In this document: piece after piece, positions 7,983 to 41,864 of the stretch | Numbering within the stretch: the first letter of the stretch is position 1 | Layout of the letters: every line of letters begins with the position of its first letter | Assembly (NCBI RefSeq): GCF_000720325.1 | Contig: NZ_JOJM01000006.1 | Span: forward strand, 62,001 to 126,000 | DNA from: Streptomyces sp. NRRL B-1347 | Lineage (GTDB): Bacteria; Actinomycetota; Actinomycetes; Streptomycetales; Streptomycetaceae | DNA: 64,000 nucleotides | Reading direction: 5' to 3' | Notes under the pieces: model-generated | What the model saw: the letters and a program-made list of their open reading frames with translations, nothing else | The model's database searches: none | What the model was told of the DNA's origin: nothing | Program-made: the position numbers and the translations under genes

Positions 7983-8062
7983 CCAGGTCAAGTTCTGACC
8001 GAACCATGACAAAACCGGTCGAACCGTTCACGCCGGGTAGCCGCTGGGCCAGAATCGCGGGC

Positions 8063-8335
8063 ATGACCTACACCCCGGACAATCCGGTCCCTCGCGGCGT
8101 GCACGAAGTCCTGAGCGCCGACGGGCGGCACTGGTCGCGCCTCGGCCCGCGCTGGTACTCCGGCATGGACTACACCTGGCCCGGCGACTTGGAAGCCCAG
8201 CTCGCACCCCTCGCGCAGGCCCCCGCCCCCGAGCCCGAGGAGGGGCCGCCCGGAGGGAGCCGCGCCAAGTGCCTCGGCGCGACGCTCTGCCCCAAGTGCA
8301 CCCGCGACGCCCAGGTCATCCGCGAAGGGCTGTAG
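8063..8335 (+). CDS. Small protein with C-terminal CxxC
   Basis: 90 residues (MTYTPDNPVPRGVHEVLSAD...). The middle is Trp/Tyr-rich and a Pro/Glu linker leads to a C-terminal LCPKCTRDAQVIREGL segment, a half zinc knuckle. An in-frame ATG at 8006 would add 19 residues; I prefer 8063 because an AGAAT-like -10 lies about seven bases before it, matching the leaderless pattern of other single genes here. It is isolated between two terminators. Unknown function. Confidence 0.5.
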   Translation: MTYTPDNPVPRGVHEVLSADGRHWSRLGPRWYSGMDYTWPGDLEAQLAPLAQAPAPEPEEGPPGGSRAKCLGATLCPKCTRDAQVIREGL

Positions 8336-8339
8336 CCAC

Positions 8340-8394
8340 CTGCACGACGCCGCCCCGCCCGGGCTGTAGTCCTGGGCGGGGCGACGTCGTGCAG
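8340..8394. terminator. Bidirectional terminator between convergent genes
   Basis: CTGCACGACG and CGTCGTGCAG form the outer stem, with a GC-rich inner stem GCCCCGCCCGGG/CCTGGGCGGGGC. It sits between the 8063 gene and the reverse gene ending at 8409 and can serve both strands. Confidence 0.75.
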
Positions 8395-8408
8395 CCAGCA
8401 GGCGGCCG

Positions 8409-9191
8409 TCACCCGCTGCTGAGGGCGTGCTCGTAGCAGGGCGGGCAGAACGGGCGCAGCTTGCGCTCAGGCCTGCCCGACGGCGAGTTGACCACCGTGG
8501 CGTCCACGAGCAGCGCCTCATCAGCTGCGCCCTGACACCCCTCCGGCTCCCGGGGATGGACGGAGGCGCACAGGCACTGGCAGGAGCGCTCTTCGTCCGT
8601 CTCCGGCAGCGGCTCGTCATAGCTGACCTGGGGCGGGCGCGGGGACCTGCGCGCCGACCAGCCGCCGTTGCAGAGGGCGTGGAGGCTCTCGCCGTGCAGC
8701 GCGGCCCAGCGGGCAGCCGTCTGGCGGCTGAGCGGCCGCTGACCGTCTCGTGAGAAGAGCGGGCCGCTGCTCCGGCCGTCGAGGGCGGTACGGACGAGGG
8801 CTGCGGACTGGTCGCTGAGGGGGATGCGTCGCTCGTCCACGGCGGCGTGCTCCTCAGGGTCGACGTCGCGGGCGTCGAGGGCCAGGGCCTCGCCAACCCG
8901 CGCCTGACCCTCCCACAGCATGGCCCACAGGGCCCGGTGTTCGACCGGCACCGTCTCGTCGTCGAGCAGCTGCCGGTAGCGCGCGGGCGCCATGGGCGCG
9001 GTCCGCATGTCGGAGCGGTAGCCCCGGCTGGGCTGTGCGGCGCGGGCGGCGTCCGCCTCCGCCCGCTTGTACTGCTTGGCCCCGGTCTCCTGGTCCCGGC
9101 CGGGGGAGTCCAGTGAGCTGAGGATGCGGCGGGCGTAGGCGTAGCTGACGCCCCATCGGTCGGCGCACTCGCGTGCCGTGGTGAGTTCCAT
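8409..9191 (-). CDS. HTH protein with degenerate tyrosine-recombinase domain and Cys-rich tail
   Basis: 260 residues. Residues 3-28 (TTARECADRWGVSYAYARRI) look like an excisionase/MerR-type helix-turn-helix. Residues about 70-185 resemble the catalytic half of phage-type tyrosine recombinases: LWEGQARVGEALALDARDVD is the box I arginine region and IPLSDQSAALV the following strand and helix. The expected second box (HxxR) and the nucleophile tyrosine are not seen, so recombinase activity is unlikely. The C-terminal 65 residues carry CQCLC, H, C and FCPPC, a probable zinc site. The start is chosen from a TAAGTC -10 seven bases upstream, giving a leaderless mRNA, and a dyad operator overlaps that promoter. 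Inference: a regulator derived from an integrase. Confidence 0.65.
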   Translation of the reverse strand: MELTTARECADRWGVSYAYARRILSSLDSPGRDQETGAKQYKRAEADAARAAQPSRGYRSDMRTAPMAPARYRQLLDDETVPVEHRALWAMLWEGQARVGEALALDARDVDPEEHAAVDERRIPLSDQSAALVRTALDGRSSGPLFSRDGQRPLSRQTAARWAALHGESLHALCNGGWSARRSPRPPQVSYDEPLPETDEERSCQCLCASVHPREPEGCQGAADEALLVDATVVNSPSGRPERKLRPFCPPCYEHALSSG

Positions 9192-9196
9192 GCCTA

Positions 9197-9226
9197 CAGA
9201 CTTATGCACAGGGTGTGCGTAAGACA
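9197..9226. promoter_or_regulatory. Leaderless reverse promoter with dyad operator
   Basis: CTTATGCACA (9201-9210), GGG, TGTGCGTAAG (9214-9223) is a near-perfect dyad. Its left end supplies the TAAGTC -10 of the reverse gene, whose ATG is at 9191. The right end reads TAAGAC on the forward strand. The likely ligand is the HTH protein of that gene. Confidence 0.6.
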
Positions 9227-9350
9227 AGGGTGTGTGCCCCGTGCACCGAAGTGCGCCTCAAGTCCGCGCGCCCCCACGGGAGTTCGCCGCACGCCTTGGT
9301 GCGCGCGTGCACCGGCAAGGCTGCCCGGCGAAGCAGGGCAAACCGGGGCT

Positions 9351-9396: not shown

Positions 9397-10215
9397 ATGT
9401 CCACTGCCACGTACCTACGCACAGCAGACGTCCCCCTCGCCCGCCTGCGCCCCTTCCCGGGCAACGCCAAGCGGGGGAACGTCCCCACCATCCTCGAAAG
9501 CCTCTGCCGCACCGGCCAGTACCGGTCCCTCGTCGTCCGCCAGGGCGACGGCGACGAACTCACCACCCTCGCGGGCAACCACACCGCACAGGCCATCGCA
9601 GCCCACGGTCCCGGCGACTGCGGACTCAACGTCACCGTCGACGGCGAGCAACGCCCCTGCGGCCTCTGCCTGAACGCACCGTGGGAGCCCGTCGCCCGCT
9701 GCGAGATCGTCACCTGCGACGACGCCACCGCCAAGCGCATCAACCTCGTGGACAACCGGGCCGCCGACCAAGGCGACTACGACGAGCGCGCCCTGGCAGC
9801 CCTCATTGCCGGCATGGACGGCGACCTCGCAGGCACCGGCTACAGCGACGCCGACCTCCAGGACCTCCTCGCGCCCGTCGACCTCGACGCCGACGTGGAC
9901 GCCTACGAGCCGCCCGCCCGCCCCGCGGCCGCCACGCGCCCGCCCGCGGACCTGCCACCCGGGCCCGCGCCCGGCGAACCCGCCCCGCCCGCCCCGGACG
10001 GGCACGCCACCGTGCTCCTCACGTACACCACCGCCGAGCACGACGAGGTCGCCGCCCACATGGCGGCCGCCCGCAACGCCCTGCCGACGGCGGGCACCCC
10101 GGTCGTCGTCCTCCACGCCCTGCGCACCCTCACCGCCACCCTGAACGCCCGCGACGCCGCACGGGACAACCTCGCCGTCGACGAACTCCTGGCCGTCGCG
10201 GGAGTCGCCGCGTGA
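9397..10215 (+). CDS. ParB-like nuclease-fold protein A
   Basis: 272 residues. The first 140 have the ParB/Srx fold pattern: LARLRPFPGNAKRGN, ILESLCRTGQYRSLVVR, LAGNHTAQAIAAHG and, after a Cys pair (CGLC), the ATAKRINLVDNRAAD block typical of phage ParB-like proteins. A Pro-rich linker (about 175-200) leads to a C-terminal alpha/beta tail. The gene at 11051 is a clear paralogue. The stop overlaps the GTG of the next gene. ParB-like folds in phages act as nucleases, ATP/CTP-dependent switches or partners of PAPS-reductase-like proteins. Here it opens a block of modification-type enzymes, so a DNA-targeting role is inferred. Confidence 0.75.
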   Translation: MSTATYLRTADVPLARLRPFPGNAKRGNVPTILESLCRTGQYRSLVVRQGDGDELTTLAGNHTAQAIAAHGPGDCGLNVTVDGEQRPCGLCLNAPWEPVARCEIVTCDDATAKRINLVDNRAADQGDYDERALAALIAGMDGDLAGTGYSDADLQDLLAPVDLDADVDAYEPPARPAAATRPPADLPPGPAPGEPAPPAPDGHATVLLTYTTAEHDEVAAHMAAARNALPTAGTPVVVLHALRTLTATLNARDAARDNLAVDELLAVAGVAA

Positions 10216-10970
10216 CCGGCGCGCCCGTCGAGCTGCCCGCCCCCGTACGGCGGCGGCCACGACGGCCCGAGCGGCTCCTCGGCCAGAACAGCGAGCTCCG
10301 CGAAGACGGCGTCTGGGGGTGGACCCTCCCGGCCCTGGCCGCCCGCCTCCCCGACGGCACCACCGTCAAGACCTGCCCGGCAGCTGGGGTCTGCGCATCC
10401 GCCTGTTACGCCAGGAACGGCAGCTACCTCATCCCCAGCGTGGCGGCCCGCCACGTCGAGAACCTCCGGTACGTCGTCGAGGACCTGCCCGGCTGGACGC
10501 GGCAGATGAGCGCAGAGCTGGCCCACCAGCGGTATCGCGGCGGCTGGATCCGTATCCACGACAGCGGGGACTTCTTCAGCCCGGCGTACCTCGCCGCCTG
10601 GCTGCGCATCATGGCCTTCCGGCCCTGGGTGTCCTTCTACTGCTACACCAAGGAGCTGACACTTTTTCGCGAGATGGTGGAACCGGCCCCGCCCCGCAAC
10701 TTCCGGTGGGTGTACTCCTACGGCGGCCGCGAGGACCACCTCCTCGACCCCGCCCGGGACCGCGTGGCCGATGTCTTCCCCGACGAGGCATCGATCACCG
10801 GCGCCGGGTGGCACTCGCAGGACCGCAGCGACCTCCTGGCCGTCCTCGGCCCTGCCCCGGTCGGCATCCCCGCGAACAACATCCCGCGCTTCCGCAACCG
10901 CATGGCGGGCCGCACCTTCCGCCAGTGGCAGGCCGAGCGCGACGGCCGTCGTGCCGCCCCAGGCAGCTGA
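10212..10970 (+). CDS. GP88-like protein
   Basis: 252 residues. The signature of the phage gene-product-88 family is clear: LLGQNSEL (22-29), TCPAAGVCASACYARNGSYL (54-73, cysteines 55, 61 and 65) and WIRIHDSGDFFSPAYLAAW (112-130), followed by FYCYTKELTLF. The Cys cluster suggests an iron-sulfur or zinc site; enzymatic activity is unknown. It overlaps the upstream ParB-like gene by four bases and is followed 80 bp later by a second ParB-like gene. GP88 proteins often travel with ParB-like genes in actinophages, which fits a common complex or pathway. Confidence 0.8.
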   Translation: MTGAPVELPAPVRRRPRRPERLLGQNSELREDGVWGWTLPALAARLPDGTTVKTCPAAGVCASACYARNGSYLIPSVAARHVENLRYVVEDLPGWTRQMSAELAHQRYRGGWIRIHDSGDFFSPAYLAAWLRIMAFRPWVSFYCYTKELTLFREMVEPAPPRNFRWVYSYGGREDHLLDPARDRVADVFPDEASITGAGWHSQDRSDLLAVLGPAPVGIPANNIPRFRNRMAGRTFRQWQAERDGRRAAPGS

Positions 10971-11050
10971 CCCGCGCACGCCCGGTCCGCTCCCGCCTGC
11001 CCGCTCTACCCTTCTCCGCCCCGACCCCCCCACGAGTAGGGAATCGCCCG

Positions 11051-12019
11051 ATGACACAGGCCACTTACGTAGCGACCGAGGACGTCCCGGCCGACAAGCT
11101 GATCCCCTTCCCCGGCAACGCCAAGCGGGGGGACGTCAGCGCCATCCTCGACAGCCTCCGCCGCAACGCCCAGTACCGCGCCGTCGTCGCCCGCCGCCTG
11201 CCCGGCGGCGAACTGGTCACCCTCACCGGCAACCACACCGTGGCCGCCTTCCGCGAGCACGGTCCCGGCGACTGCGGCGTCCACACCAAGAGGACCGTGC
11301 TCAAGTACGGCAAGAGGACCGTGCCCTGCGGGGTCTGCGGCAACAAGGCCGGGTGGAAGCCGACCGTCCGCACCGAGATCATCACCTGCGACGACGACAC
11401 CGCCCGCCGCATCAACCTGGCCGACAACCGGACGGCCGACCTCGGCAGCTACGACGACCGCGCCCTCCATGAACTCCTCGCCGCTCTCGACGGGGACCTG
11501 ACCGGCACCGCCTACACCGACAGCGACGTCGACGACCTCCTCAAGACCAGCGGCGCCCTCGCCGAATCGGCCAGCGCTTTCCTGGAGGACTTCGCCGCCC
11601 CGGCACCCGGCGCCCCGTCGACACACCCCTTCTCCGACACCGCCCCGCCCACCGGCGCCGCCCAGACCCCGCAGCCCCCTGAAGGCACCCAGGAGCGCCC
11701 GGCAGACAGCGAGGCGGCCGCCGCCCCGCCCCCGCACTCCGAAGGCGTCCACACCGGCCCCGCGCCGTACACCGGGCCCGGCGCGCGGCAGCCCGCGGGC
11801 GACGGAATCCCCCTGCCCACCTCTCCCCAGATGGCCCCCCTTCAGTGGGTGTTCACCCTGGAGCAGCGCGACACCGTCCGCGCCGCCATCAAGGCCGAGC
11901 AGATCCAGGGCGGCCACGACACTGCGGCGCAGGCACTCACCGCGATCTGCAGCCACTACCTCGCCGCCGCCCCCGAGCAGGCCAGTAGCGACGCGGAGGG
12001 AGCGGCCGCGCGTGTCTGA
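11051..12019 (+). CDS. ParB-like nuclease-fold protein B (paralogue of A)
   Basis: 322 residues. The N-terminal 150 align with the 9397 product: PADKLIPFPGNAKRGD, ILDSLRRNAQYRAVVARR, LTGNHTVAAFREHG, a CGVC pair and ARRINLADNRTADLGSYDD. An insertion with Lys/Arg (HTKRTVLKYGKRTV) before CGVC distinguishes it. A long Pro/Ala/Ser linker (about 180-265) joins a helical C-terminus. A TACCCT box lies about 40 bases upstream and may be an internal promoter. It overlaps the following aminotransferase gene by eight bases. Confidence 0.75.
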   Translation: MTQATYVATEDVPADKLIPFPGNAKRGDVSAILDSLRRNAQYRAVVARRLPGGELVTLTGNHTVAAFREHGPGDCGVHTKRTVLKYGKRTVPCGVCGNKAGWKPTVRTEIITCDDDTARRINLADNRTADLGSYDDRALHELLAALDGDLTGTAYTDSDVDDLLKTSGALAESASAFLEDFAAPAPGAPSTHPFSDTAPPTGAAQTPQPPEGTQERPADSEAAAAPPPHSEGVHTGPAPYTGPGARQPAGDGIPLPTSPQMAPLQWVFTLEQRDTVRAAIKAEQIQGGHDTAAQALTAICSHYLAAAPEQASSDAEGAAARV

Positions 12020-13106
12020 CCTCCTCGCCCTGCACGACGTGCGCTGGCCGCCCGCCCCGACCGCGGCCGCGCGCCACGCCGTCAGCAGCGCCCTCGACTC
12101 CCGCTCATGGACGGCGCGCCGCTACACCCGCCTCGCCGAACAGGCCATGAGCGACCTCACCGGCGCCCCGCACGCGGTGGCGTTCCAGTCCTGCACGGCC
12201 GCCATCCACGCCACCCTCCTCGCCCACGGTGCGCAGCGCGGCACGCCCGTGCACACCCCTGCCTTCGGCTTCGCCGGAACCCTCACCGGCGCCGCCCACA
12301 TCGGCGCCACGCTGCTCTACCACGACGTCGACCTCGGCACCGGCAACAGCGTCGAGCCCGGGCACACGCCGGGGCAGCTCGTCCTCACCCCCGACCTCCA
12401 CGGCGTCCCCCACAACCTGCCGCGCGCCGAGGTCATCACCGACGCCTGCCAGTCCCTCGGCACCCTCACCGACGGCCGCCACGGCGGCGCCACCGGCACG
12501 CACTGCTGGAGCTTCTCGTCGACCAAGCTCGTCGCCGCCCCGGACGGGGGAGCGGTCACCACCGACGACGAGGCCCTGGCCGCCGAGCTCCGCCAGCTCC
12601 GCGACTACGGCGCCGAACCGTGGGAGTCCCGCGCCAACGCCTTGATCACCCGGCCCGGTCACAACTGGCGGCCCAGCGAGCTGTCCATGGCCCTCGTCGT
12701 CGAACAGCTCTACACCCTCACCGAGACCGCGGCCCGCGCGCGGGAGGTCGGCGCCCGCGTCCAGCAGACCCTCGTCGACTGCGGCCTGTGGCACCAGCGC
12801 ACCCGCCCCATGGTCGAACCCGCCTGGCACAAACTCCGCACCGGCCTCCCTGGCTCCGGGCACCGGCGGCTGCCCGCGGCCCTCACCGAGGCCGGGATGC
12901 CCCTCCACCGATGGGGCCACCACCCACTGCCCGACCACCCCTTCTTCGCCCCAGCCGAGGGCCGCCGGCATGCCACCCCGCACGCCGAACGCCTCGCCGC
13001 TCAGACCTTCTGCCTCGGCACCGAGGCCTGCCCGCCCTGGACGTGGTCGCCCGGCGAGACCGAACTCGTCTGCACCACCCTCGAAATGATCACGGAGGAC
13101 CTGTGA
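12012..13106 (+). CDS. DegT/DnrJ/EryC1/StrS-type PLP aminotransferase
   Basis: 364 residues, normal for the family. Seen motifs: AFQSCTAAIHATLLAHG (58-73, phosphate-binding turn), PAFGFAGTLTGAAHIGAT (83-100), ITDACQSLG (142-150, Asp144 for the pyridine nitrogen) and CWSFSSTKLVAAPDGGAVTT (165-184, Lys172 as the PLP-lysine). All key residues are present, so it is probably active. The family transfers an amino group from Glu or Gln to keto-sugars or keto-cyclitols; StsC-type members aminate scyllo-inosose. Its neighbour is a myo-inositol-1-phosphate synthase, so an amino-cyclitol product is conceivable. Its GTG overlaps the previous gene and its stop overlaps the next start. Confidence 0.85.
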   Translation: MSDLLALHDVRWPPAPTAAARHAVSSALDSRSWTARRYTRLAEQAMSDLTGAPHAVAFQSCTAAIHATLLAHGAQRGTPVHTPAFGFAGTLTGAAHIGATLLYHDVDLGTGNSVEPGHTPGQLVLTPDLHGVPHNLPRAEVITDACQSLGTLTDGRHGGATGTHCWSFSSTKLVAAPDGGAVTTDDEALAAELRQLRDYGAEPWESRANALITRPGHNWRPSELSMALVVEQLYTLTETAARAREVGARVQQTLVDCGLWHQRTRPMVEPAWHKLRTGLPGSGHRRLPAALTEAGMPLHRWGHHPLPDHPFFAPAEGRRHATPHAERLAAQTFCLGTEACPPWTWSPGETELVCTTLEMITEDL

Positions 13107-14215
13107 CCCACACCCCGCTCCACCCAGTCCGCGTCGGCATCATCGGCGTCGGCAACTGCGCCCGCGCCCTCATCGAGGGCATCGCCTACTACCGGCAGGA
13201 GCCCGACGACGACACCGGCCTGTGCCACCCGACCATCGGTGGCTACACCCCCGCCGACGTCGAGCCCGTCGCCGCCTGGGACGTCGACACCGACAAGGTC
13301 GGCCGCTCCCTGTGGGACGCGCGCGCCGCGGGCCAGAACCTCGACGTCGGCCTCCCACAGGACCTGAAGCCGATCGCCGACGACGTCACCGTCAGCCGTG
13401 CCCCCGTCCTCGACGGCGCGGGCCACAAGTACCGCGAGCGGATCACCGTCGACGAGGGCGAGCACAACACGTGCGACGACGCGCACCGCATCTGCGAGGA
13501 GATCCAAGCCGCCGGGGTCCTCGTCCTGATCAACTACCTGCCCGTCGGCTCCCAGCAGGCCACGGAGTGGTGGGCGCGGATCGCCCTGGAGACCGGCTGC
13601 GCCTTCGTCAACTGCATCCCCGTCTTCATCGCCCGCAACGAGGAGTGGCGCCAGCGCTTCCGCGCCGCCAGGACGCCCCTCATCGGCGACGACATCAAGA
13701 GCCAGCTCGGCGCGACGTACGTGCACCGCGTCCTCGCCCGCGCCTTCCGGGACCGGGGCATCACCCTGGAACAGACGTACCAGCTGAACGTCGGCGGCAA
13801 CATGGACTTCTACAACATGCTGGAGGCCGACCGACTGGCCACCAAGCGGGAGTCCAAGAGCGGCGCCGTCACCGATGCGTACGGCCCCATCTGCCCCGGC
13901 AACGTGCACATCGGCCCCTCCGACTACGTGCCGTGGCTCGGCGACACGAAGAAGGCCTTCATCCGCTGTGAGGGCCGTGGCTTCGCCGGGGCGCCCATCG
14001 AGCTGGAGATGCAGCTCACCGTCCCCGACTCCCCGAACTCCGCCGGGATCGTGATCGACGCCGCCCGCATCGCGCAGACCGCCCTCGACCGCGGGGACCC
14101 CGACGTCGACGCGTGGGCGTCCGCATGGCTCTTCAAGGCCCCGCCGCGCTCCGTCGCGGAGCAGGACGACACAGAAGCCCGTCACCGCCTCGACGCGTGG
14201 CTCGAAGAGGCCTGA
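13103..14215 (+). CDS. ino1: myo-Inositol-1-phosphate synthase
   Basis: 370 residues, the length of the mycobacterial/Streptomyces enzyme. Landmarks: VGIIGVGNCARALIEG (11-26, NAD-binding), INYLPVGSQQATEWW (143-157), GDDIKSQLGAT (195-205), QLNVGGNMDFYNML (227-240) and TKRESKS (247-253). It should convert glucose-6-phosphate to inositol-1-phosphate using NAD+ as catalyst in the cytoplasm. Hosts already possess this enzyme, so a phage copy in an operon with an aminotransferase and PP-loop proteins suggests a dedicated precursor for modification. The GTG overlaps the upstream stop (GTGA), giving translational coupling. Identity is certain by motif; the pathway is inferred. Confidence 0.9.
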   Translation: MTHTPLHPVRVGIIGVGNCARALIEGIAYYRQEPDDDTGLCHPTIGGYTPADVEPVAAWDVDTDKVGRSLWDARAAGQNLDVGLPQDLKPIADDVTVSRAPVLDGAGHKYRERITVDEGEHNTCDDAHRICEEIQAAGVLVLINYLPVGSQQATEWWARIALETGCAFVNCIPVFIARNEEWRQRFRAARTPLIGDDIKSQLGATYVHRVLARAFRDRGITLEQTYQLNVGGNMDFYNMLEADRLATKRESKSGAVTDAYGPICPGNVHIGPSDYVPWLGDTKKAFIRCEGRGFAGAPIELEMQLTVPDSPNSAGIVIDAARIAQTALDRGDPDVDAWASAWLFKAPPRSVAEQDDTEARHRLDAWLEEA

Positions 14216-14216
14216 C

Positions 14217-15029
14217 GTGCACACCGTCCTCAAGTCCAAGACGGCGTACAGCAACGACGACGTCGCCCGCGTGTGGGCCAGCATCACCGACCACGTCACC
14301 GAGGACGAGGCCGAACGCGCCGTCGAGGAGGCCGCCCGCGAGACCCGGGCGGTCCTCGACGGCCGCCCCGACACCGCGGTGTACGGCTGGTCCGGCGGCA
14401 AGGACAGCGTCGCCCTCCAGGTCGTCATGGAACGCGCCGGTGTCCACCGCGCCCTCCTCGGCACCATCCCCCACCTCGAGTTCCGCAGCTATCTCGCCTG
14501 GTGCGACGAGCACCGGCCCGACGGCCTCACCGTCATCGGCAACCCGCACATCACCCCGGCCTGGCTCGCCCGCCCCGGCAACGACCGCTACCTCTTCCCC
14601 ACCACAAGCACCGACGGCTACAAGTGGACGATGCTCGGCACCCGCCGCGCCCAGCACCTCTACCAGCAGCAGATGCACCCCCGCCTTCAGATCTACGGGC
14701 GCCGCACCGCCGACGGCAACTACATCCCCCCGACCGAGCACGGCATCCACCGCACCCGCCGCCTCACCACCTACAGCCCCATCCGGCACTGGCCGCACGA
14801 ACTCGTCCTCGCCGTCGTCCACTACAACCGGCGCCCCCTGCCGCCCGTCTACGACTGGCCGGACGGGTGGAAGACCGGCACCGGCTCCTGGCCCGGCCGC
14901 CGCGTCGGCGACCGCGACACCGCCTTCGCGCAGACGTACGCGATCGAACCTGAGCGCCTCCTCGAGGCCGCCCCGGATCTGCCCGCGGCTGCCGACTGGC
15001 TGCGCCGGCATACCGACGGGAGCACCTGA
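14217..15029 (+). CDS. PAPS-reductase-like PP-loop protein 1
   Basis: 270 residues. The PP-loop SGGKDS is at 59-64, after an N-terminal helical region, and marks the adenine-nucleotide alpha-hydrolase fold used by PAPS reductases, DndC and IbrA. Later HLEFRSYLAWCDEH and YSPIRHWPHELV correspond to substrate and lid regions. It is shorter than the neighbour at 15029 and lacks a Cys cluster typical of iron-sulfur DndC. It starts one base after the inositol-phosphate synthase stop and overlaps the next ATG by one base. Likely ATP-dependent activation of a substrate; which one cannot be read from the sequence. Confidence 0.8.
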   Translation: MHTVLKSKTAYSNDDVARVWASITDHVTEDEAERAVEEAARETRAVLDGRPDTAVYGWSGGKDSVALQVVMERAGVHRALLGTIPHLEFRSYLAWCDEHRPDGLTVIGNPHITPAWLARPGNDRYLFPTTSTDGYKWTMLGTRRAQHLYQQQMHPRLQIYGRRTADGNYIPPTEHGIHRTRRLTTYSPIRHWPHELVLAVVHYNRRPLPPVYDWPDGWKTGTGSWPGRRVGDRDTAFAQTYAIEPERLLEAAPDLPAAADWLRRHTDGST

Positions 15030-16435
15030 TGACCGACATGCCCGACGGTTGGGCCCCGGTCGGCGCCTGCATCGACAAGCACGTAATGGGCTACGTGGCC
15101 AAGCACAACCGGCCGCGCCTTGCCGCCGGGGCCGACGTCTACACGCTGGCCTGCGAGCGCACCGAGTACGTCCTGGACACCCACGACCGGGCCACGGTCG
15201 CGTTCTCCGGCGGCAAGGACTCCACCGCGGTCCTCAACGTCGCCCTGGAGGTCCTCGCCCGGGAGAAGCGCCTGCACCGGCATCTGCCGCTGCGCGTCTA
15301 CTTCTTCGACGAGGAGGCCATCCCGTACGAGACCGAGGAGTACGTGCGCCGCGTCGCCCAGCGCGACGACATCGACCTCGTCTGGCTGTGCCTGCCCGTG
15401 CAGCACCGCAACGCCTGCTCCCGCCGCTCCCCGTACTGGTGGCCTTGGGCGCCAGAGGACGAGGCGAAGTGGTGCAGGCCGCTGCCCCCCGAGGCGGTCA
15501 CGACGTGGCCCGGCTTCCCGATCTGGCCGCCCGAGGAACGCCTGTCCGTCCCCAACACGAACGGCCTCCTCGCCCCGCCCCCACACACCACCGCGACCTT
15601 CATGGGCATCCGCGCGCAAGAGTCCCTGATCCGCGCACACGCCGTACGCCTGCGGTCCGTCGACAACTACATCGTCCCCTACCGGCCGAAGTCGAACGCG
15701 CGGCAGGCCGCGGCCGTCTTCCACGGCAACCTGTGGAAGGCCTACCCGATCTACGACTGGCTCACCGAGGACGTGTGGGCCGCGGTCCGCCTCAAGGGCT
15801 GGGACTACAACCGGGCGTACGACGTGATGGAGATGGCCGGTATCGGACCCGCAGGGCAGCGCTGCTCACCCGCCTTCGGCGAGGAGCCCCTGCAGAAGAT
15901 CCACACCTACGCGCAGTGCTTCCCCGACGTGTGGGCCCGCATGGCCGAGCGCGTGCCGGGCATCGGCGCCGCCTACCGGTACGCCCGCACCGAGCTGTAC
16001 GGCTACGGCAGCAAGCCCGACAAGCCCGCCGGTATGCCCTGGCCGGACTTCATCCGCCACTACCTCAGCAAGCACGGACAGAAGGTCCAGCCGCAGATCG
16101 CCGCGCGCATCCAGGAGATCGTCACCCGGCACTACAGCAAGGTCACGCACCCGATCCTCCCCGCGACCCCGCACCCGGTGACCGGGGTGAGCTGGGCCTT
16201 CCTCCTCACGATCGCGATGCGCGGCGACTTCAAGCAGCGCCGCCAGGAGGCGCACCAGCTGCTGAAGAAGGACCCCACGGCCCTGTGGCACCGCTACGCC
16301 CAGGAGCTCACCGACCTCACCGCGGCCGGGCCCGAGGGCCGGACGGAGATCGGCTACCCGCAGGCGCTGCCCGCCGACCCGCGGACCCTCATCCCCGACG
16401 AGTACAAGACCCCGCCCACGGAGGCCACACCGTGA
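15029..16435 (+). CDS. IbrA-like PAPS-reductase-family protein
   Basis: 468 residues. SGGKDST is at 60-66, followed by YFFDEEAIPYETEEYV, a central GIRAQESLIRAHAVRL block and YPIYDWLTEDVW, the arrangement of IbrA-type phosphoadenosine-phosphosulfate-reductase-like proteins. In enterobacteria IbrA works with IbrB, a ParB-like protein, as co-activators of eib genes; here the IbrB-like gene follows directly with a GTGA overlap. It differs from true PAPS reductases in length and in lacking the C-terminal ECGLH motif. Role inferred as nucleotide-dependent partner of the ParB-like protein. Confidence 0.8.
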   Translation: MTDMPDGWAPVGACIDKHVMGYVAKHNRPRLAAGADVYTLACERTEYVLDTHDRATVAFSGGKDSTAVLNVALEVLAREKRLHRHLPLRVYFFDEEAIPYETEEYVRRVAQRDDIDLVWLCLPVQHRNACSRRSPYWWPWAPEDEAKWCRPLPPEAVTTWPGFPIWPPEERLSVPNTNGLLAPPPHTTATFMGIRAQESLIRAHAVRLRSVDNYIVPYRPKSNARQAAAVFHGNLWKAYPIYDWLTEDVWAAVRLKGWDYNRAYDVMEMAGIGPAGQRCSPAFGEEPLQKIHTYAQCFPDVWARMAERVPGIGAAYRYARTELYGYGSKPDKPAGMPWPDFIRHYLSKHGQKVQPQIAARIQEIVTRHYSKVTHPILPATPHPVTGVSWAFLLTIAMRGDFKQRRQEAHQLLKKDPTALWHRYAQELTDLTAAGPEGRTEIGYPQALPADPRTLIPDEYKTPPTEATP

Positions 16436-16983
16436 CCGACCACACCCCCGTGCCCGAGCCGTTGAGGGCACCGACAGGAACGGAGCTCCAGCCCGTGAGC
16501 ACGGTCACCTGGCTGCCCCGCGACGCCCTCGCCGCGAACTCCTACAACCCGAACAAGCAGGCACCCCCGGAGTACCGCCTCCTCAAGACCTCCATCCTGG
16601 AGAACGGGTGGACGCAGCCCATCGTGGCCCGGGAAGTCGACGACCGGCTGGAGGTCGTCGACGGCTACCACCGGTGGAAGGTCTCCACCGACGCGGAGCT
16701 GGCCGCGCTCACCGGCGGCCTGGTCCCCGTCGTCGTCCTCCCTCCGACGGACCCCGCCTCAGCGCGCATGGCCACCATCCGCCACAACCGCGCCCGGGGC
16801 ACGCATCACGTCCTGGCCATGGCCGACATCGTCTCCGACCTCAAGCGCCTCGGCATCCCCGAGGACGAGATCAGCCGCCGCCTGGAGATGGACCCCGAAG
16901 AGGTCGACCGCCTCGCCGACCGCGGCGACATGATCGCCCGCCACGCCCCTGACACCTTCAACCAGGGATGGACCGTCGGCTAG
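16432..16983 (+). CDS. IbrB-like ParB-family protein
   Basis: 183 residues. The pattern SYNPNKQ (residues about 38-44), LLKTSILENGWTQPIVAR, LEVVDGYHRWKVS and IRHNRARGTHHVLAMADIV is the ParB/IbrB nuclease-fold signature, with the VDGYHR catalytic or nucleotide-contact turn intact. A C-terminal segment (IPEDEISRRLEMDPEEVDRL) resembles a helix-turn-helix. The start overlaps the IbrA-like gene, the same gene order as the enterobacterial ibrA-ibrB pair. It is a third, clearly different ParB-like protein in this block. Confidence 0.82.
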   Translation: MTDHTPVPEPLRAPTGTELQPVSTVTWLPRDALAANSYNPNKQAPPEYRLLKTSILENGWTQPIVAREVDDRLEVVDGYHRWKVSTDAELAALTGGLVPVVVLPPTDPASARMATIRHNRARGTHHVLAMADIVSDLKRLGIPEDEISRRLEMDPEEVDRLADRGDMIARHAPDTFNQGWTVG

Positions 16984-17021
16984 CCCCGCCCCACCAGCCC
17001 GCCCGCACAAGGAGCCGCAGC

Positions 17022-17747
17022 ATGCCCGCCGCCATGAAGCGCAGCCCTGACGACGAGAACGAGATCCACGACCTCACCGCGCACACCGACCCCGGGAACT
17101 GCGTCGTCACCCCCGTCGCCCACTTCCCGGCCCGCGTCGCCCGCACCGTCACCGACGCCCTCCGCCACCTGGTCCAGGCCGCCCACCGCTCCCCGGCCGC
17201 CACCACCCCCAACGAGGACGGCATCACCCGTGCCCAGACCTTCGAGGAGGGGGAGGTCTACATGCTCGGCGCGCCCTTCACCGGCTACCCCGCCGACCGG
17301 TACCTCATGGACTTCTACGACGTCGTCGAGCGCGACATCTGCTCACGCATGCACCTGCACACCGGGCTCCGCTACGTCCGCATGATGACCGGCCCCGGCA
17401 CCCGCATCCGCGTCGCCTCCCTCGCCCCCATCCACATCACCCACGTCCCCGGCGTCACCGCGTTCCTGCCCGAGACCTTCGAAGACGACTACCCCGACGC
17501 CCCCGAAGACCAGCCACGCACCCGCCACAACCTGGTCATCCCCCCGAACTCCTGGGCCGACATGCAGATCCCCCGCGGCGTCAGCCACCAGTTCAACGCC
17601 CACGGCCCCCACGCCGTCATCGACTCCGTCCACCCCGAGGAGTCCATCGAGACCCTCCGCGAGCACATGACCGGCTACCGCATGATGGCCCAAACGATCT
17701 TCCTCGCCGACGAGCAGCCCCCCGCCCACTCCTGTCGACTCACCTGA
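17022..17747 (+). CDS. Cupin-like protein, last gene of the block
   Basis: 241 residues with AAGGAG upstream; an ATG at 17034 is an alternative start. A double-stranded beta-helix is suggested by SRMHLHTGLRYVRMMTGPGT with an HxH pair, the strand run IHITHVPG, and IPRGVSHQFNAHGPHAVIDSVHPEES with further histidines. These could bind Fe(II) or another metal as in cupin dioxygenases, isomerases and epimerases. It follows the IbrB-like gene by 38 bp. Cupins also act as sugar-nucleotide epimerases, which would fit an aminated-cyclitol or sugar pathway; this is inference. Confidence 0.6.
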   Translation: MPAAMKRSPDDENEIHDLTAHTDPGNCVVTPVAHFPARVARTVTDALRHLVQAAHRSPAATTPNEDGITRAQTFEEGEVYMLGAPFTGYPADRYLMDFYDVVERDICSRMHLHTGLRYVRMMTGPGTRIRVASLAPIHITHVPGVTAFLPETFEDDYPDAPEDQPRTRHNLVIPPNSWADMQIPRGVSHQFNAHGPHAVIDSVHPEESIETLREHMTGYRMMAQTIFLADEQPPAHSCRLT

Positions 17748-18143: not shown

Positions 18144-18326
18144 GCCTGGAGTCTAGGACTCCCGCCAGGCCCCGTCATCCACGCCCGCACGGACGACCCC
18201 CGCCCCTCCCCACAGCTATCCTCATGCGCCCCTCACCTGCACACACCCAGGGAAGCCACCCACATGACCCGCTAGTTGAAGAGCAAACCTGGACACATTC
18301 CGGTCCCCGCACCCCCGAGGAGACCC

Positions 18327-18749
18327 ATGGGCGCCTCAGGCCGACAGCGACTCTCCGCCGTGGAGCGACGCAAGAACGCCCTCCAGCTCCAGCTCGCAGG
18401 CGTCGACCTCCGCACCATCGCCGAACAGGTCGGGTACGCGGACGCCTCCGCCGCGAAGAAGGCCATCGACCGGGCCATCGCCGACAGCATCAGCCGGGAC
18501 AAGGAGGACATCGACAGCCTCCGCCGCGACGAGATCATGCGCTACAACCGGCTGCAGGCCGCCTTCTGGTCACGGGCCGTCACGGACAAGAACCCGAAGG
18601 CCGCGGACATCGTGCTGAAGTGCATCGCCGGACGCGAGCGCCTCCGCGGCCTCCAGGCCCCCACGCAGATCAACGTCGACGCGCAGAAACTCGGCAACGA
18701 GATCCTCGCTCTCCTCGATGGCGGAGACGACGATGCCGGCAGCGTCTGA
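18327..18749 (+). CDS. terS: Terminase small subunit
   Basis: 140 residues. The ATG has CGAGGAGA upstream; a TTG at 18276 would add 17 residues without a site. An N-terminal helix-turn-helix (RRKNALQLQLAGVDLRTIAE, about 12-31, then YADASAAKKAIDRAI) is followed by a helical oligomerisation region (EDIDSLRRDEIMRYNRLQAA). This is the layout of phage TerS, which recognises the packaging site and hands DNA to TerL. It overlaps the large subunit gene by 32 bp. Confidence 0.8.
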   Translation: MGASGRQRLSAVERRKNALQLQLAGVDLRTIAEQVGYADASAAKKAIDRAIADSISRDKEDIDSLRRDEIMRYNRLQAAFWSRAVTDKNPKAADIVLKCIAGRERLRGLQAPTQINVDAQKLGNEILALLDGGDDDAGSV

Positions 18750-20388
18750 CCCGGAGCGGGCGCTGATCGAGCGGCAGGTCCTGGAGCTCGTCCGCGCCGG
18801 GGACGTCAAGACCCTGCGCCTGCTCCGCGACCGGGCGCAGCGCAAGCGGGACGAGAAGACCGCCCGCCGCATCATCAAGTACATGTACGACCCGGCCGGG
18901 TGGGCGCGGGACTGTATCGACTGGGGCGACGACGGCGGCACCACCGCGTATCAGGCGGAGATCCTCTCCGCCCTCGCCGAGCACCACCGCGCGGCCGTAC
19001 GCGGCCCGCACGGCCTCGGCAAGACCGGCCTCGCCTCGTGGGCCGTCCTCTGGTTCGCGACGACGCGGGAGGCCGCGGGCATCGACTGGAAGGTCCTCGT
19101 CACGGCCTCGGCGTGGCGGCACCTGTCGGTCTACCTGTGGCCCGAGATCCACAAGTGGGCGCGGCGCATCCGCTGGGACGTCCTGGGGCGGCAGCCCTTC
19201 AGCGAACTGCGAGAGCTCCTCACCCTGAACCTGAAGCTGGTGCACGGCGCGGCCACGCCCGTCGCCTCGCACAAGCCGGAGCTGATCGAGGGCGCGCACG
19301 CCGAGTCCCTGCTGTACATGATCGACGAGGCGAAGGTCGTCGTGGACGGCACCTGGGACGCCATCGAGGGCGCCTTCTCCGGTGGCCGCACCGACCGGAC
19401 GCTCCCGGAGGCTTTCGCCCTCGCGATCAGCACCCCGGGCCCGCCCGCGGGCCGCTTCTACGACATCCACCGCCGCGCCCCCGGCCTTGAGGACTGGTGG
19501 GTCCGCCACGTCACCCTCGCCGAAGCCGTCGCTGCCGGGCGCATCAGCCCGCAGTGGGCGGAGCAGCGCGCCCGCCAGTGGGGCCGCGACTCCGCGATGT
19601 TCGCCAACCGCGTCCTGGGGGAGTTCCACGCCAGCGACGAGGACTCCGTCATCCCCCTCGCCTGGGTGGAGGCAGCCATCGAACGCTGGCATGCCTGGGA
19701 CGGCGCCGGACGACCGGCCCTCGAGGGCCGCCGCATCCTCGGGGTCGACGTCGCCCGCTCCGGCGGCGACTCCACCGTGTTCGCGCACCGCCAGGGCCAC
19801 GCGATCACAGAGCTGGAGATCCACGACCGCGAGGACACCATGCAGACCACCGCCCGCGTACAGGCCGCCGTCGGCCAGGGCGAGCAGGAGCGGGTGCCGG
19901 TGGTCGACTCCATGGGCGTGGGCGGCGGCGTCGTCGACCGGCTCCGCGAACTCAACGTGCCCGTCCTGGCGTACACCGGCGCAGCCAAGTCGCGCAGCCG
20001 CACGCGTGACGGCGAGTGGGGGTTCACCAACCTGCGCAGCGCCGCCTACTGGCGCGTGCGCGAGCTCCTCGATCCCGCCTTCGACGCCGAGCTGCTGCTC
20101 CCCCCGGACGACCTCCTCATCAGCGACCTGACTGCGCCGACGTGGAAGACCCTCACGGGCATCCCGCCCAAGATCCAGATCGAGCCGAAGGAGCAGCTGG
20201 TCGAGCGCCTGGGACGCTCACCCGACCGCGGCGACGCAGTGGTGATGGCGCTCGCCTCCGAGTTGCTCGCCTCGTCCACCGTGCACGTCCCCGTCCGCCG
20301 CGAGACAGACCGGCAGTTGCCGCGGGCCGCCGCACGGTACGGGCGCTCGCTCGGGCATGGCGGGGGCGCAGCAGGGCCCGGCCGCTGA
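18718..20388 (+). CDS. terL: Terminase large subunit
   Basis: 556 residues. Walker A is RGPHGLGKT (95-103), Walker B LLYMIDEA (198-205), followed by a coupling region. The C-terminal nuclease domain has ILGVDVARSGGDST with the metal-binding Asp, VVDSMGVGGGVVDRL, and SPDRGDAVVMAL near the end. It packages DNA into the prohead by ATP hydrolysis and cuts concatemers. The start could also be the ATG at 18733, which has GGAG at a better distance; 18718 is the longer option. Confidence 0.93.
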   Translation: MAETTMPAASDPERALIERQVLELVRAGDVKTLRLLRDRAQRKRDEKTARRIIKYMYDPAGWARDCIDWGDDGGTTAYQAEILSALAEHHRAAVRGPHGLGKTGLASWAVLWFATTREAAGIDWKVLVTASAWRHLSVYLWPEIHKWARRIRWDVLGRQPFSELRELLTLNLKLVHGAATPVASHKPELIEGAHAESLLYMIDEAKVVVDGTWDAIEGAFSGGRTDRTLPEAFALAISTPGPPAGRFYDIHRRAPGLEDWWVRHVTLAEAVAAGRISPQWAEQRARQWGRDSAMFANRVLGEFHASDEDSVIPLAWVEAAIERWHAWDGAGRPALEGRRILGVDVARSGGDSTVFAHRQGHAITELEIHDREDTMQTTARVQAAVGQGEQERVPVVDSMGVGGGVVDRLRELNVPVLAYTGAAKSRSRTRDGEWGFTNLRSAAYWRVRELLDPAFDAELLLPPDDLLISDLTAPTWKTLTGIPPKIQIEPKEQLVERLGRSPDRGDAVVMALASELLASSTVHVPVRRETDRQLPRAAARYGRSLGHGGGAAGPGR

Positions 20389-22499: not shown

Positions 22500-22838
22500 A
22501 TGATCGGCCCAGCGGAGTTCGCCCTGCTCGCCGCCGCCAGCTACCGCGGCACGCAGCTCGTCGTCCACGACAGCATCCTCGACCCCCTCCGAGACCGCGT
22601 CGCCGCCTGGGAGGACCGCGCCGACAGCCGCGCCCGCACGGCGCTCCTGACCCTCATCTCCTGCATCTACTGCAGCGGCTGGTGGGTATCCGGCGCCGTC
22701 CTCGCCACCTGGCTTCTCGCCACCGGCCAGTGGCACGGCGTGGCCCCGGCCGTGCACGCCGTCGAGTGGTTCGCCGTCGCCGGGGTGCAGGCCCTCCTCA
22801 ACCGCTGGGACGACAGCCGCGATACGGCGGAGTCCTGA
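22500..22838 (+). CDS. DUF1360-family membrane protein
   Basis: 112 residues. The family pattern is seen: SYRGTQLVVHDSILDPLRDR, a LISCIYCSGWWVSGAVLATWLL membrane segment with the CxxC-type pair, a second membrane segment near the C-terminus (VEWFAVAGVQALL) and RWDD. DUF1360 proteins are common next to phage portal genes; their role is unsettled. The stop overlaps the portal ATG, so the two are coupled. Confidence 0.75.
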   Translation: MIGPAEFALLAAASYRGTQLVVHDSILDPLRDRVAAWEDRADSRARTALLTLISCIYCSGWWVSGAVLATWLLATGQWHGVAPAVHAVEWFAVAGVQALLNRWDDSRDTAES

Positions 22839-24577
22839 TGGCCAACCTCACCGCCGCCGCCCAGCGCTTCATCGACCGCCGCCTCAGGCGCGGCAGGAAC
22901 GCCACCCCGGACAAGGCGTGGCAGCTCGCCGCCTGGGGCTTCTACCGGCGCGTGCCCGAGGTGTACTTCTCCGCCGCCTACAACGGCCACGCCATGGCCC
23001 GCGCCCGCCTCTTCGCCGGACGCCGCGCCGACGACGGCACGATCGAACCGGCCCCCGACGACCACCCCGCCACAGAGATCGTCTCTCAGATCGCGGGCGG
23101 CCCCGACGGACAGTCCAAGCTCCTCGGAGCGTTCGGCAAGCACCTCACCATCGCGGGCGAGGGCTGGGTCGTCGTCCGCCCCAACTCCGAGGTGAGAAAC
23201 CCCGACGTCCCCGAGGACGGCCACGACTGGCTGACCCTGTCCGTCCGCGAGGTCGAGCAGCAGAACGGCAAGCTGTCCGTCCAGATCGACGGCGAAGACA
23301 TCGAGATCCCCGCAGGCGACCCCGACACCCTCGACCCCCAGGCGCCCGTGGCGCTCCGCGTATGGACGGCCGACCCCGAGCGCGCCATCGAGGCCGACAG
23401 CCCCGTCCGCTCCAGTCTCGGCCTCCTCGAAGAGCTGGAACTCCTGAACGCCGCCGTCAAGGCCATCGCCAGGAGCAGGCTCACGGGCCGCGGCATCCTC
23501 CTCGTCCCCAAGGGCGTGCGTTTCCCCACCAAGCCCGGCCAGTCAGACGCCGAGGACGACCTGATCGAGATGCTGATGACCGTCGCCGAGACGGCCATTC
23601 GCGAGCCCGACAGCGCCGCCGCCACCATCCCCATCGTCCTCGAAGTCCCGTCCGACTCGATCGCGAGCTTCAAGCTGATCACCTTCGAGTCCGAATTCGA
23701 CGAGCTCGCGATCAAGCTCCGCGAGGAGGCGATCCGCCGCTACGCCACCGGCCTGGAGATGCCCGCCGAGATCCTCCTCGGCATGGGCGACATCAACCAC
23801 TGGGGCGCGTGGCAGCTCACCGAGGAGGCGATCAGCCTCGGCATCGAGCCCAAGCTCGCCACGGTCGCCCACGCCCTCACCCTGCAGTGGCTGCGCCCCC
23901 TCCTCCAGGCCGAGCGCGTCCCCGACTGGCACCGGTGGCTCGTCTGGTACGACACCGCCCCCCTGCGCGTACGCAGCAACCGCAGCCAGGTCGCCCTGGA
24001 GACATGGGACCGGGGCCTGATCTCCGACACGGCGGCCCGGCGCGAGACCGGCTTCGACGACGCCGACGCCCCCGACACGCCCCCGAAGCGCCCGAAGGCA
24101 CGCACCGAACCCCAGGACGACGACACCAGCACGCCGGAGGTGGACCTGCCCGTGGACGAGACGAACAGCGAACCCGACACCCTGCCCGCATCCCTCGCCT
24201 ACGCCCCGCCCATCGACCCGGCGCTCCTGGCCGCAGCGGACGGCCTGATCTGGGCCGCCCTGTCCGCCGCAGGGGAGAAGCTGCGCCGCACGCCGGCATG
24301 CCCGCGCTCCGAACGCGCCCGCGCCCGCGAGCTCCAGCCCGCGCAGCTCCACACGATCCTCATCATCGAGCAGGACGAGGTCGACCGGTGGCGTCTCCTC
24401 GACGGCGCATGGGCGCGCCTGCCCGAGGTCGCCGACCGCTACGGCGTCGACCCGGACTGTCTCACCGCAGCCCTGGACACCTACGCCCGGGAGCTCATCA
24501 CCGCCGGGGTCGAGCACTCCTACGACCTGGTCCCCAGCGCCCTCCACCCCTGCACGGCCGCGCGGGAGGCCGCATGA
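22838..24577 (+). CDS. Portal protein
   Basis: 579 residues, typical for a siphovirus portal. Characteristic segments are FRRVPEVYFSA-like YRRVPEVYFSAAYNGHAMAR, SDSIASFKLITFESEFDELA and MPAEILLGMGDINHWGAWQL. It forms the dodecameric ring at one capsid vertex through which DNA enters and leaves. The C-terminal third (about 410-579) is linker followed by a helical domain absent from minimal portals. It overlaps the following small gene by four bases. Confidence 0.9.
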   Translation: MANLTAAAQRFIDRRLRRGRNATPDKAWQLAAWGFYRRVPEVYFSAAYNGHAMARARLFAGRRADDGTIEPAPDDHPATEIVSQIAGGPDGQSKLLGAFGKHLTIAGEGWVVVRPNSEVRNPDVPEDGHDWLTLSVREVEQQNGKLSVQIDGEDIEIPAGDPDTLDPQAPVALRVWTADPERAIEADSPVRSSLGLLEELELLNAAVKAIARSRLTGRGILLVPKGVRFPTKPGQSDAEDDLIEMLMTVAETAIREPDSAAATIPIVLEVPSDSIASFKLITFESEFDELAIKLREEAIRRYATGLEMPAEILLGMGDINHWGAWQLTEEAISLGIEPKLATVAHALTLQWLRPLLQAERVPDWHRWLVWYDTAPLRVRSNRSQVALETWDRGLISDTAARRETGFDDADAPDTPPKRPKARTEPQDDDTSTPEVDLPVDETNSEPDTLPASLAYAPPIDPALLAAADGLIWAALSAAGEKLRRTPACPRSERARARELQPAQLHTILIIEQDEVDRWRLLDGAWARLPEVADRYGVDPDCLTAALDTYARELITAGVEHSYDLVPSALHPCTAAREAA

Positions 24578-39776: not shown

Positions 39777-40430
39777 GTGACGGCGGCCATCCCGCGCCTC
39801 ATCCACTGGATCTGGATCGGCTCACCGGTCCCGGCCCGGTTCGAGGCCTACCGGGACACCTGGGCCAGCGCGCATCCCGACTGGGAGATGCGGGTGTGGA
39901 CCGACGACAACCTTCCGCCCATGTACAACCAGCACCTCTACGACCAGGCCGCCGACTACGCGCCCGCGTCCATGGTCGGCCAGTTCCGCGCTGACGTCCT
40001 GCGCTACGAGCTGCTGTGGCAGTACGGCGGCGTCTACGTCGACGCGGACTTCGAGTGCCTGCAGCCCATCACACCGCTCCTGGACGGCATCGACGCGTTC
40101 GCGGCGTGGGAGACCGACGGCAGGCGCATCGCCAACGGCCTGATGGGCGCCGCCCGGAGCCATCGGTTCATCGGCCGGTTGATCACCGACCTGGAGGCGT
40201 CCGCGGCCCGGCACAAGGGCGCACGGCCCGCCATCTCCACCGGCCCCGCCTACCTCACCACCGCGTACCGCGAGCACCCCGGGGAGCTGGCCGTGCTCCC
40301 GTCCCGCCTCTTCTACCCATACCTGTGGAGCGAGCTCGACAGCCTGAAGGCGCGGCCGCCGTGGCCCGCGCACTGCTACGCCGTCCATCACTGGCACAAC
40401 CGCCGCAAGCACCGTGGAGAGGCGCCATGA
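39777..40430 (+). CDS. Glycosyltransferase with DXD motif (GT32-like)
   Basis: 217 residues. IPRLIHWIWIGSPVPARFEA (5-24), HPDWEMRVWTDDN and FRADVLRYELLWQYGGVYVD followed by ADFE give the classic sugar-binding and DXD metal site of Gly_transf_sug/GT32 enzymes. It would move a sugar from a nucleotide donor to an acceptor in the cytoplasm. Set among fibre genes, it probably decorates virion proteins. Its stop overlaps the next start. Confidence 0.82.
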   Translation: MTAAIPRLIHWIWIGSPVPARFEAYRDTWASAHPDWEMRVWTDDNLPPMYNQHLYDQAADYAPASMVGQFRADVLRYELLWQYGGVYVDADFECLQPITPLLDGIDAFAAWETDGRRIANGLMGAARSHRFIGRLITDLEASAARHKGARPAISTGPAYLTTAYREHPGELAVLPSRLFYPYLWSELDSLKARPPWPAHCYAVHHWHNRRKHRGEAP

Positions 40431-41845: not shown

Positions 41846-41864
41846 TCAAAGGGAGGTACCCGGC

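Follow-up and report, generated by a model that had tools for sequence, protein, structure and literature searches.

A prophage cassette combining PP-loop, ParB-like, DegT and Ino1 proteins as a presumed DNA hypermodification cluster

Described systems and the present cassette

Mycobacterium phage Athena carries an IbrA-IbrB-type gene pair, gp4-gp5, before its terminase gene gp6; IbrA and IbrB were named in E. coli as regulators of immunoglobulin-binding proteins. The Dnd system joins an enzyme of the PP-loop, PAPS (3'-phosphoadenosine 5'-phosphosulfate)-reductase type to a ParB-superfamily partner, with an enzyme dependent on pyridoxal phosphate (PLP) nearby. Base-modification clusters of the 5-hydroxymethyldeoxyuridine (5-hmdU) type, marked by 5-hmdU kinase and ADDT, and of the 7-deazaguanine type include an Ino1 (inositol-phosphate synthase) gene in phages Cr30 and Moby and in many IMG/VR contigs, and the routes to hygromycin A and streptomycin use Ino1 plus a DegT-type aminotransferase. 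Here we analyse a 64,000-nucleotide stretch (G000:C6:62001-126000, hereafter the window) of the 10.2 Mb genome of Streptomyces sp. NRRL B-1347, in which nine open frames, A to I (Table 1), occupy positions 9397-17747 of the + strand. The parts of this cassette are known and their combination appears to be undescribed, and we regard it as a presumed DNA hypermodification cluster.

The comparison with each of these systems is partial. G and H belong to the same two families as the Athena pair and keep their order, but no F, DegT or Ino1 is annotated in that stretch of Athena. The cassette resembles Dnd in its PP-loop enzyme, its ParB-like partners and its PLP enzyme; the latter, however, is an aminotransferase and not a desulfurase, and DndD and DndE are unmatched among the nine proteins. 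Unlike the 5-hmdU and 7-deazaguanine clusters, the prophage that holds the window is without those genes, and its Ino1 is of another lineage, paired with DegT. The same enzyme-family pair as D-E occurs in aminocyclitol biosynthesis and in Actinomadura clusters, but the phage pair stands with PP-loop and ParB genes instead of polyketide genes. That an amine can be joined to a phage base at the expense of ATP has been demonstrated for 5cxmC-glycine, made by CmoX/CmoY of the amino-acid:DNA ligase type, according to the available part of that report (PMC12783734), with enzymes different from those of the cassette, where a CmoA/CmoX match did not come up, no search being aimed at one.

The earlier note knew of no system that combines Ino1, DegT, GP88 and IbrAB, and in agreement with it we found no published description of the combination, or of an inositol group on phage DNA, in a search that lay mostly outside the subscription literature. 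Iyer et al. 2013, who reportedly predicted lysidine-like PP-loop systems in phages, may have priority for part of the idea. The literature examined gave no established function for phage PAPS-reductase/ParB pairs, and phage PAPS reductases are treated as metabolic genes in the accessible portions of two papers (PMC10434257, PMC11318856). For phage Ps15, the excerpt at hand mentions que genes and an Ino1 gene separately, the latter as of bacterial origin (PMC9025141). Serratia phage eta was considered as a case that might connect ParB genes with hypermodified DNA, and then set aside, no modified bases being reported in the part of its description that was available (PMC3918226).

We propose, with belief slightly ahead of doubt, that the cassette makes and installs an ATP-dependent hypermodification on phage DNA in the lytic cycle, attaching an aminocyclitol made by Ino1 and DegT. 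In this mechanism, E would convert glucose 6-phosphate into inositol phosphate, or set free the ketone (inosose) intermediate, and D would place an amino group on the keto-cyclitol. The PP-loop proteins F and G would then spend ATP on an adenylated intermediate, formed either on a DNA base carbonyl or on the small molecule by chemistry akin to that of TilS or GMP synthetase elsewhere, and the amine would be joined to the base. The ParB-like C and H, and perhaps A, could bind DNA or nucleotide and steer the reaction. As the cassette lies shortly upstream of the terminase gene, its position suggests modification just ahead of packaging, which would shield virion DNA from host restriction. The core of F, a ParB-like protein, G and H would be fed in other phages by a compound imported through a sodium:solute symporter, or by small enzymes such as cupins. 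Observed are the identities of the genes, the conservation of the core, the exchange of its neighbours and the integrity of the PP-loop motifs; we infer every chemical step, DNA as the target and the aminocyclitol as the product; the target is the weakest link of the proposal.

A conserved core with interchangeable neighbours

Viral contigs were scanned with an alignment of 18 F proteins and the best 80 of 159 loci were retained; the counts below refer to 85 loci in which F was called, and neighbourhoods extended from six genes before F to seven after it. H is present in 81 of the 85 loci and G in 78, and nine are without G or H, some of them at contig ends. In a tblastn comparison of the nine proteins with the first 38 loci, F nearly always has G and H after it. 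C belongs to cluster c2, found in 65/85 F loci and directly after F in 60. When F is dereplicated at 90% identity (n=69), G remains in 63 loci, H in 65, both in 61 and some ParB-like gene in 62; at 60% identity (n=33), G and H are together in 28. The cassette is not a chance assembly, because the same gene order recurs in viral contigs at ~30-80% protein identity. F, ParB, G and H are therefore a core that is kept across very different phages. The nine genes had at first been taken as one unit, which does not hold: GP88 (5/85 F loci), the cupin-like I (9/85) and DegT-Ino1 are accessory to this core.

What surrounds the core changes from phage to phage. A sodium:solute symporter gene is present in 47/85 F loci and stands directly upstream of F in 39 (L206-L280). 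Among the 69 dereplicated loci, 36 have the symporter, eight the unassigned c37 membrane protein, 12 any of three cupin families and five Ino1, and at least one supply or cupin gene occurs in 57 of them (28 of the 33 at 60% identity). DegT-Ino1 is one of several interchangeable supply modules, the others being the symporter, another membrane protein and a cupin. Full-length symporters that were examined have 9-12 hydrophobic segments; of the proteins with solved structures, the urea symporter DUR3 (59.8 bits) and a choline transporter (48 bits) are nearest to them, and in NCBIfam they match the superfamily alone, below its cut-off. Near F in L208, L209 and L214, cluster c78 adjoins the symporter with a protein of ~200 aa that begins like a signal peptide; its L214 representative has no family match. 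An NMT1/SsuA-like ABC binding protein lies beside F at L033:6487-7476 (PF09084 94.4 bits) and at L030:8810-9718. In a genome of the same genus (G373, L286:7752-11622), a ParB-like gene, a cupin (Cupin_2 58.1 bits), F and G are consecutive, H is not detectable, and the cupin occupies the slot held by DegT-Ino1 in the window.

The core is also a neighbour of packaging genes. A TerL resembling the window's follows in 29/85 F loci. In other loci, positions +4/+5 are taken by clusters c6 (at +4 in 31) and c18, which correspond to terminase small and large subunits (one representative each). This position bears on a reading of the cassette as an anti-phage defence or superinfection-exclusion device of the prophage. 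PP-loop and ParB-like proteins do occur in defence systems such as Dnd (available part of PMC10853773), but in many phages the core lies among the late genes and not at prophage edges, and PADLOC gave just weak matches for the nine proteins, to DndC (22.3 bits) and MTase_II (19.9 bits); we regard a defence role as scarcely credible. In the host's family, F is rare (2/394 genomes, the host included). A near-identity search with the cassette had no match in 50,697 phage records, and protein searches of phage records with D and I returned distant or single matches only.

F has no Pfam match above cut-off. It matches phrog_424 (PAPS reductase, 1e-10), and its AlphaFold2 (AF2) model, with a mean predicted local distance difference test score (pLDDT) of 95.2, adopts the fold of PAPS/APS-reductase, CysD and FAD-synthase; the GMP synthetase, TtuA, LarE and TilS families have tied scores in the fold comparison, none being preferred. 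The PP-loop motif SGGKD is kept in all 74 aligned rows. No cysteine column of this alignment exceeds 72%, and in the three columns with cysteine in at least 50% of rows the residues of the window's F are M, A and T. True PAPS reductases conserve a C-terminal catalytic cysteine, and by this measure F would not be counted among them. In the 78-row alignment of G, only C121 is strongly conserved (94%); the next-best cysteine columns reach 56% and 62%, and the window's G has other residues there. Because F and G keep the PP-loop and are without a conserved cysteine set, sulfur transfer appears unlikely. In H, the motif DGxHR is invariant (D77, G78, H80 and R81 in 100% of 74 rows), and G-H qualifies as an IbrAB-like pair, with PAPS_reduct plus DUF3440 adjoining ParB_N, all scoring above cut-off. 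A and C have no Pfam match and both fall in PHROG ParB-like families.

The cysteine pattern also bears on a phosphorothioate-type system, in which G would act as DndC and H as DndB to place sulfur in the DNA backbone. Both G and DndC are PP-loop proteins of the PAPS-reductase type, G has weak DndC matches (TIGR03183 18.3 bits, PADLOC 22.3 bits), and a ParB-superfamily DndB accompanies DndC, as the portion of PMC10853773 at hand states. G is, however, far under the TIGR03183 cut-off of 290.4, and the conserved cysteine set for an iron-sulfur centre is missing in F and G. PADLOC matches none of the nine proteins to DndA, B, D or E, the cassette is without a cysteine desulfurase, and Ino1-DegT would be left unexplained. 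Such a system is highly improbable here.

The DegT-Ino1 pair and the case for DNA as target

The closest solved relatives of D are of the ArnB type (86.7 bits); scyllo-inositol transaminase 7b0d scores 47.7 bits. In the ArnB alignment, K172 of D takes the place of the lysine replaced by alanine in entry 4oca. E scores 321.8 bits against Mycobacterium tuberculosis Ino1 (1gr0), whose catalytic residues, which we take to be D197, K284, D310 and K346, align with invariant Ino1 columns and are kept in E. Judged from these alignments, D and E keep their catalytic residues. Against the equivalog of housekeeping mycothiol Ino1 (TIGR03450), E reaches 354.9 bits, below the cut-off of 638, and the host has an Ino1 of its own (L002, 49%).

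A viral scan with E recovered five contigs, L034-L038, one of which is this prophage, and the order D, E, F, G, H is present in 5/5. Conserved co-occurrence in other phages, whose absence the earlier note had named beforehand as a refutation of its hypothesis, is thereby found. In L035 and L036, the two ParB genes (including homologues of A), GP88 and I are present as well; each has two tandem copies of the IbrA-like G, against one in the window. L037 and L038 are without GP88 and I, and in them E and F are separated by two glycosyltransferase-like genes. Both L038 genes match Glyco_transf_25 above cut-off; the L037 genes have no Pfam match, one sharing 27% identity with one of the L038 pair (E 4e-15) and the second 48% with the first. 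Before DegT, L038 carries a symporter gene (PF00474 73.4 bits); it also has a gene that is nucleotidyltransferase-like by eye, with no Pfam or NCBIfam match. In an independent version, L164, a ParB-like gene is accompanied by genes for a C5 cytosine methylase (182.5 bits), a PP-loop protein of the asparagine-synthase type (42.7 bits), a DegT with 29% identity to D, an Ino1 with 47% identity to E, and a terminase.

The glycosyltransferase-like genes inside the L037 and L038 cassettes, like those in the structural region of this prophage (39.8-43.3 kb), would suit a different outcome, in which the core modifies another target (the nucleotide pool, tRNA or a virion protein) and the cyclitol and glycosyltransferases decorate the particle or the host surface. 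Symporter companions would likewise suit any consumer of small molecules. Three ParB-like proteins and the adjacency to terminase nevertheless point to DNA, and the cassettes of the window, L035 and L036 are without glycosyltransferases; we hold a target other than DNA to be unlikely, though it deserves weight.

The pair is not restricted to phages. Among the best 80 of 360 relatives of L038 Ino1 in genome contigs, eight loci are from Actinomadura: L043 is the L037 prophage, and in seven chromosomes (L044-L050) DegT lies directly before Ino1, with F, G and H not found in the fetched flanks. Four of these Actinomadura loci that were inspected have as neighbours, variously, an acyl-carrier protein, an aromatic amino acid lyase, a Gfo/Idh/MocA oxidoreductase and a PAPS_reduct protein. 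A tree of 42 Ino1 proteins unites the five phage sequences with the seven from Actinomadura (100/100, stem 0.81), separate from the host Ino1 and far from other viral Ino1s. DegT-Ino1 is a specialised module, and because the pair also serves something besides phage DNA, this supports a diffusible aminocyclitol as its product rather than DNA as its target.

These chromosomal pairs could also fit a regulatory or lysogenic-conversion cassette, with IbrA-IbrB as regulators and DegT-Ino1 as metabolic cargo that alters the host; the naming of IbrA and IbrB counts for it, and since the host has its own Ino1, extra inositol might serve host metabolism. Against this, D-E stands with F-G-H in all five recovered viral contigs, the tight position of the core before terminase in many phages is atypical of cargo, and regulators would not need adjoining transporters. 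We therefore judge this role to be quite unlikely.

The proposal of DNA modification draws on Ino1 genes of other phages. A scan with an Ino1 alignment gave the best 80 of 214 viral loci, and the 77 analysed comprise 75 from this set together with those of phages Cr30 and Moby. Their recurrent neighbours include 5-hmdU kinase domains (143.2 and 41.9 bits), TET/JBP (80.6), thymidylate synthase (71.4), a dual-specificity phosphatase (34.2 bits) and P-loop kinases, as well as the ADDT-like cluster c7, one representative of which scores 22.7 bits, below the cut-off of 26.2. With hidden Markov models (HMMs) built from neighbour clusters, a hallmark gene is detected in 67/77 Ino1 loci and in 0/85 F loci; in Ino1 loci dereplicated at 90%, the count is 34/50 with the stronger clusters only and 46/50 with the ADDT-like c7 included. 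Since these HMMs were trained on the same Ino1 neighbourhoods that they scored, we ran a Pfam test on whole records: among 25 Ino1 records, PF18723 is above cut-off in 14, PF18724 in 10 and either in 16, against 0/25 F records, the F control being hand-picked and all 50 records hand-chosen.

In Caulobacter phage Cr30 (L041, 5732-9179), ADDT (179.3 bits), a weak match to a TET-associated glycosyltransferase (19.7 bits, below cut-off) and Ino1 are consecutive. In Stenotrophomonas phage Moby (L042, 20981-38081), Ino1 at 8001-9251 stands between GTP cyclohydrolase 1 (FolE) and QueC (40.5 bits), TGT-like and QueE genes, and 16 Stenotrophomonas records match Moby Ino1. A single stretch of L170 (4741-12847) holds QueE, QueD-like (by eye), QueC-like, Ino1, TGT-like, ParB-like and terminase genes, and so connects the deazaguanine setting with the ParB-terminase one. 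The Ino1 genes of other phages tie phage Ino1 to DNA modification generally and extend to this prophage by analogy; in that sense they support the idea of the earlier note that DNA receives a cyclitol made by Ino1, while DNA as the target and attachment of an aminocyclitol stand unproven.

Several observations weigh against attachment to phage DNA, besides the shared training set and the hand-chosen records described above. Recognised pyrimidine and deazaguanine hypermodification genes were not found in the prophage with custom HMMs applied to the window and L281-L283. Specifically, 5-hmdU kinase, ADDT and TET/JBP were not found in the prophage region (custom HMMs; PF18723), PF18723 has no match in the window's IMG/VR record under conditions that detect the positive control G399, and QueC, QueE and TGT-like HMMs, built from few sequences, have no match at E 1e-3 in the window or L281-L283. 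A C5-methylase or hydroxymethylase making a base handle was not found either, and neither a cyclitol dehydrogenase nor a phosphatase was recognised in the cassette. The window's Ino1 lineage is distant from the Ino1s of hypermodification clusters, and the Actinomadura pair, amid polyketide-type genes, indicates that the D-E product is useful beyond DNA modification. PAPS-reductase-like and ParB-like genes are common in phages (G matches 215/50,697 records) and could be regulatory; the tie of F, G and H to DNA modification is one that we infer.

More speculatively, and with clearly more doubt than confidence, we suggest that phages decorate DNA with inositol-derived groups, Ino1 having been recruited to 7-deazaguanine, 5-hmdU/ADDT and TET/JBP chemistries and to a fourth, undescribed one here, in which an F-ParB-IbrA-IbrB installer works with an exchangeable supply, made by Ino1-DegT or imported by the symporter. 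The recurrence of Ino1 beside hypermodification enzymes predicts inositol-type groups on phage DNA. If true, this would add a DNA-modification chemistry based on PP-loop enzymes and give a function to phage IbrA and IbrB genes that are now annotated as sulfur metabolism or partition. It would also describe a system of DNA modification served by a nutrient-uptake route of its own, the symporters beside the core being the means by which a virus imports a building block for its own DNA.

The locus and its prophage

The window sits in a prophage whose IMG/VR copy has 89,769 bp and whose span, taken from the range of that copy, is approximately C6 33.8-123.6 kb. The integrase gene at the left end of the prophage lies to the left of the window, and the portal gene to the right of the cassette (Table 1).

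Table 1. Genes of the cassette and landmarks of the prophage (window coordinates, except for the integrase; Pfam scores of B, D, E, G and H all exceed the Pfam cut-offs).
Feature	Position	Strand	Evidence
A: ParB-like protein, 272 aa	9397-10215	+	phrog_723 1.3e-46
B: GP88 family protein, 252 aa, accessory	10212-10970	+	PF17338 182.7 bits
C: second ParB-like protein, 322 aa, family in core	11051-12019	+	phrog_723 8.1e-40
D: DegT-type PLP aminotransferase, 364 aa, supply module	12012-13106	+	PF01041 152 bits
E: Ino1-type inositol-phosphate synthase, 370 aa, supply module	13103-14215	+	Inos-1-P_synth PF01658 110.7 bits
F: PP-loop ATP pyrophosphatase, PAPS-reductase/CysD fold, 270 aa, core	14217-15029	+	phrog_424 and model fold
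G: IbrA-like PP-loop protein with DUF3440, 468 aa, core	15029-16435	+	PAPS_reduct PF01507 38.7 bits, PF11922 29.7 bits
H: IbrB-like ParB protein, 183 aa, core	16432-16983	+	ParB_N PF02195 35.3 bits
I: probable cupin-like protein, 237 aa, accessory	17034-17747	+	phrog_28683 1.3e-114
TerL, landmark directly downstream, outside the cassette	18718-20388	+	phrog_2 129.9 bits
Portal	22838-24577		557 bits
Integrase	L281:1806-3629		phrog_1, 163 bits

As the earlier note had it, the nine genes share one strand and most of them overlap: overlaps of 1-8 nt occur at five of the eight junctions (4 nt for G/H), with gaps of 1 nt at E/F, 80 nt at B/C and 50 nt at H/I. Its gene names also stand for ParB/GP88/ParB, DegT, Ino1, the two PP-loop proteins and IbrB, through Pfam, PHROG or fold, and less firmly for the cupin. 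I, whose start codon was picked from an alignment with relatives (61-77% identical), has no Pfam or NCBIfam match, and its low-confidence model (pLDDT 62.5) resembles cupin sugar isomerases best (E 3.8e-4) and then other cupins, so that a cupin identity is weakly supported.

Between I and TerL lies the small gene J (18276-18749), conserved in L005, L006, L010, L011 and L013; its candidacy as the small terminase was dropped, its sole match being phrog_645, labelled Rnase E. The glycosyltransferase at 39777-40430 had no match in four related records, in a search run without a positive control. The structural region at 39777-43288 encodes a glycosyltransferase (Gly_transf_sug 55.3 bits), an FkbM methyltransferase (59.7 bits) and, with a score under the cut-off, a Stealth-like protein (24.8 bits), the last having relatives in G394 and G395.

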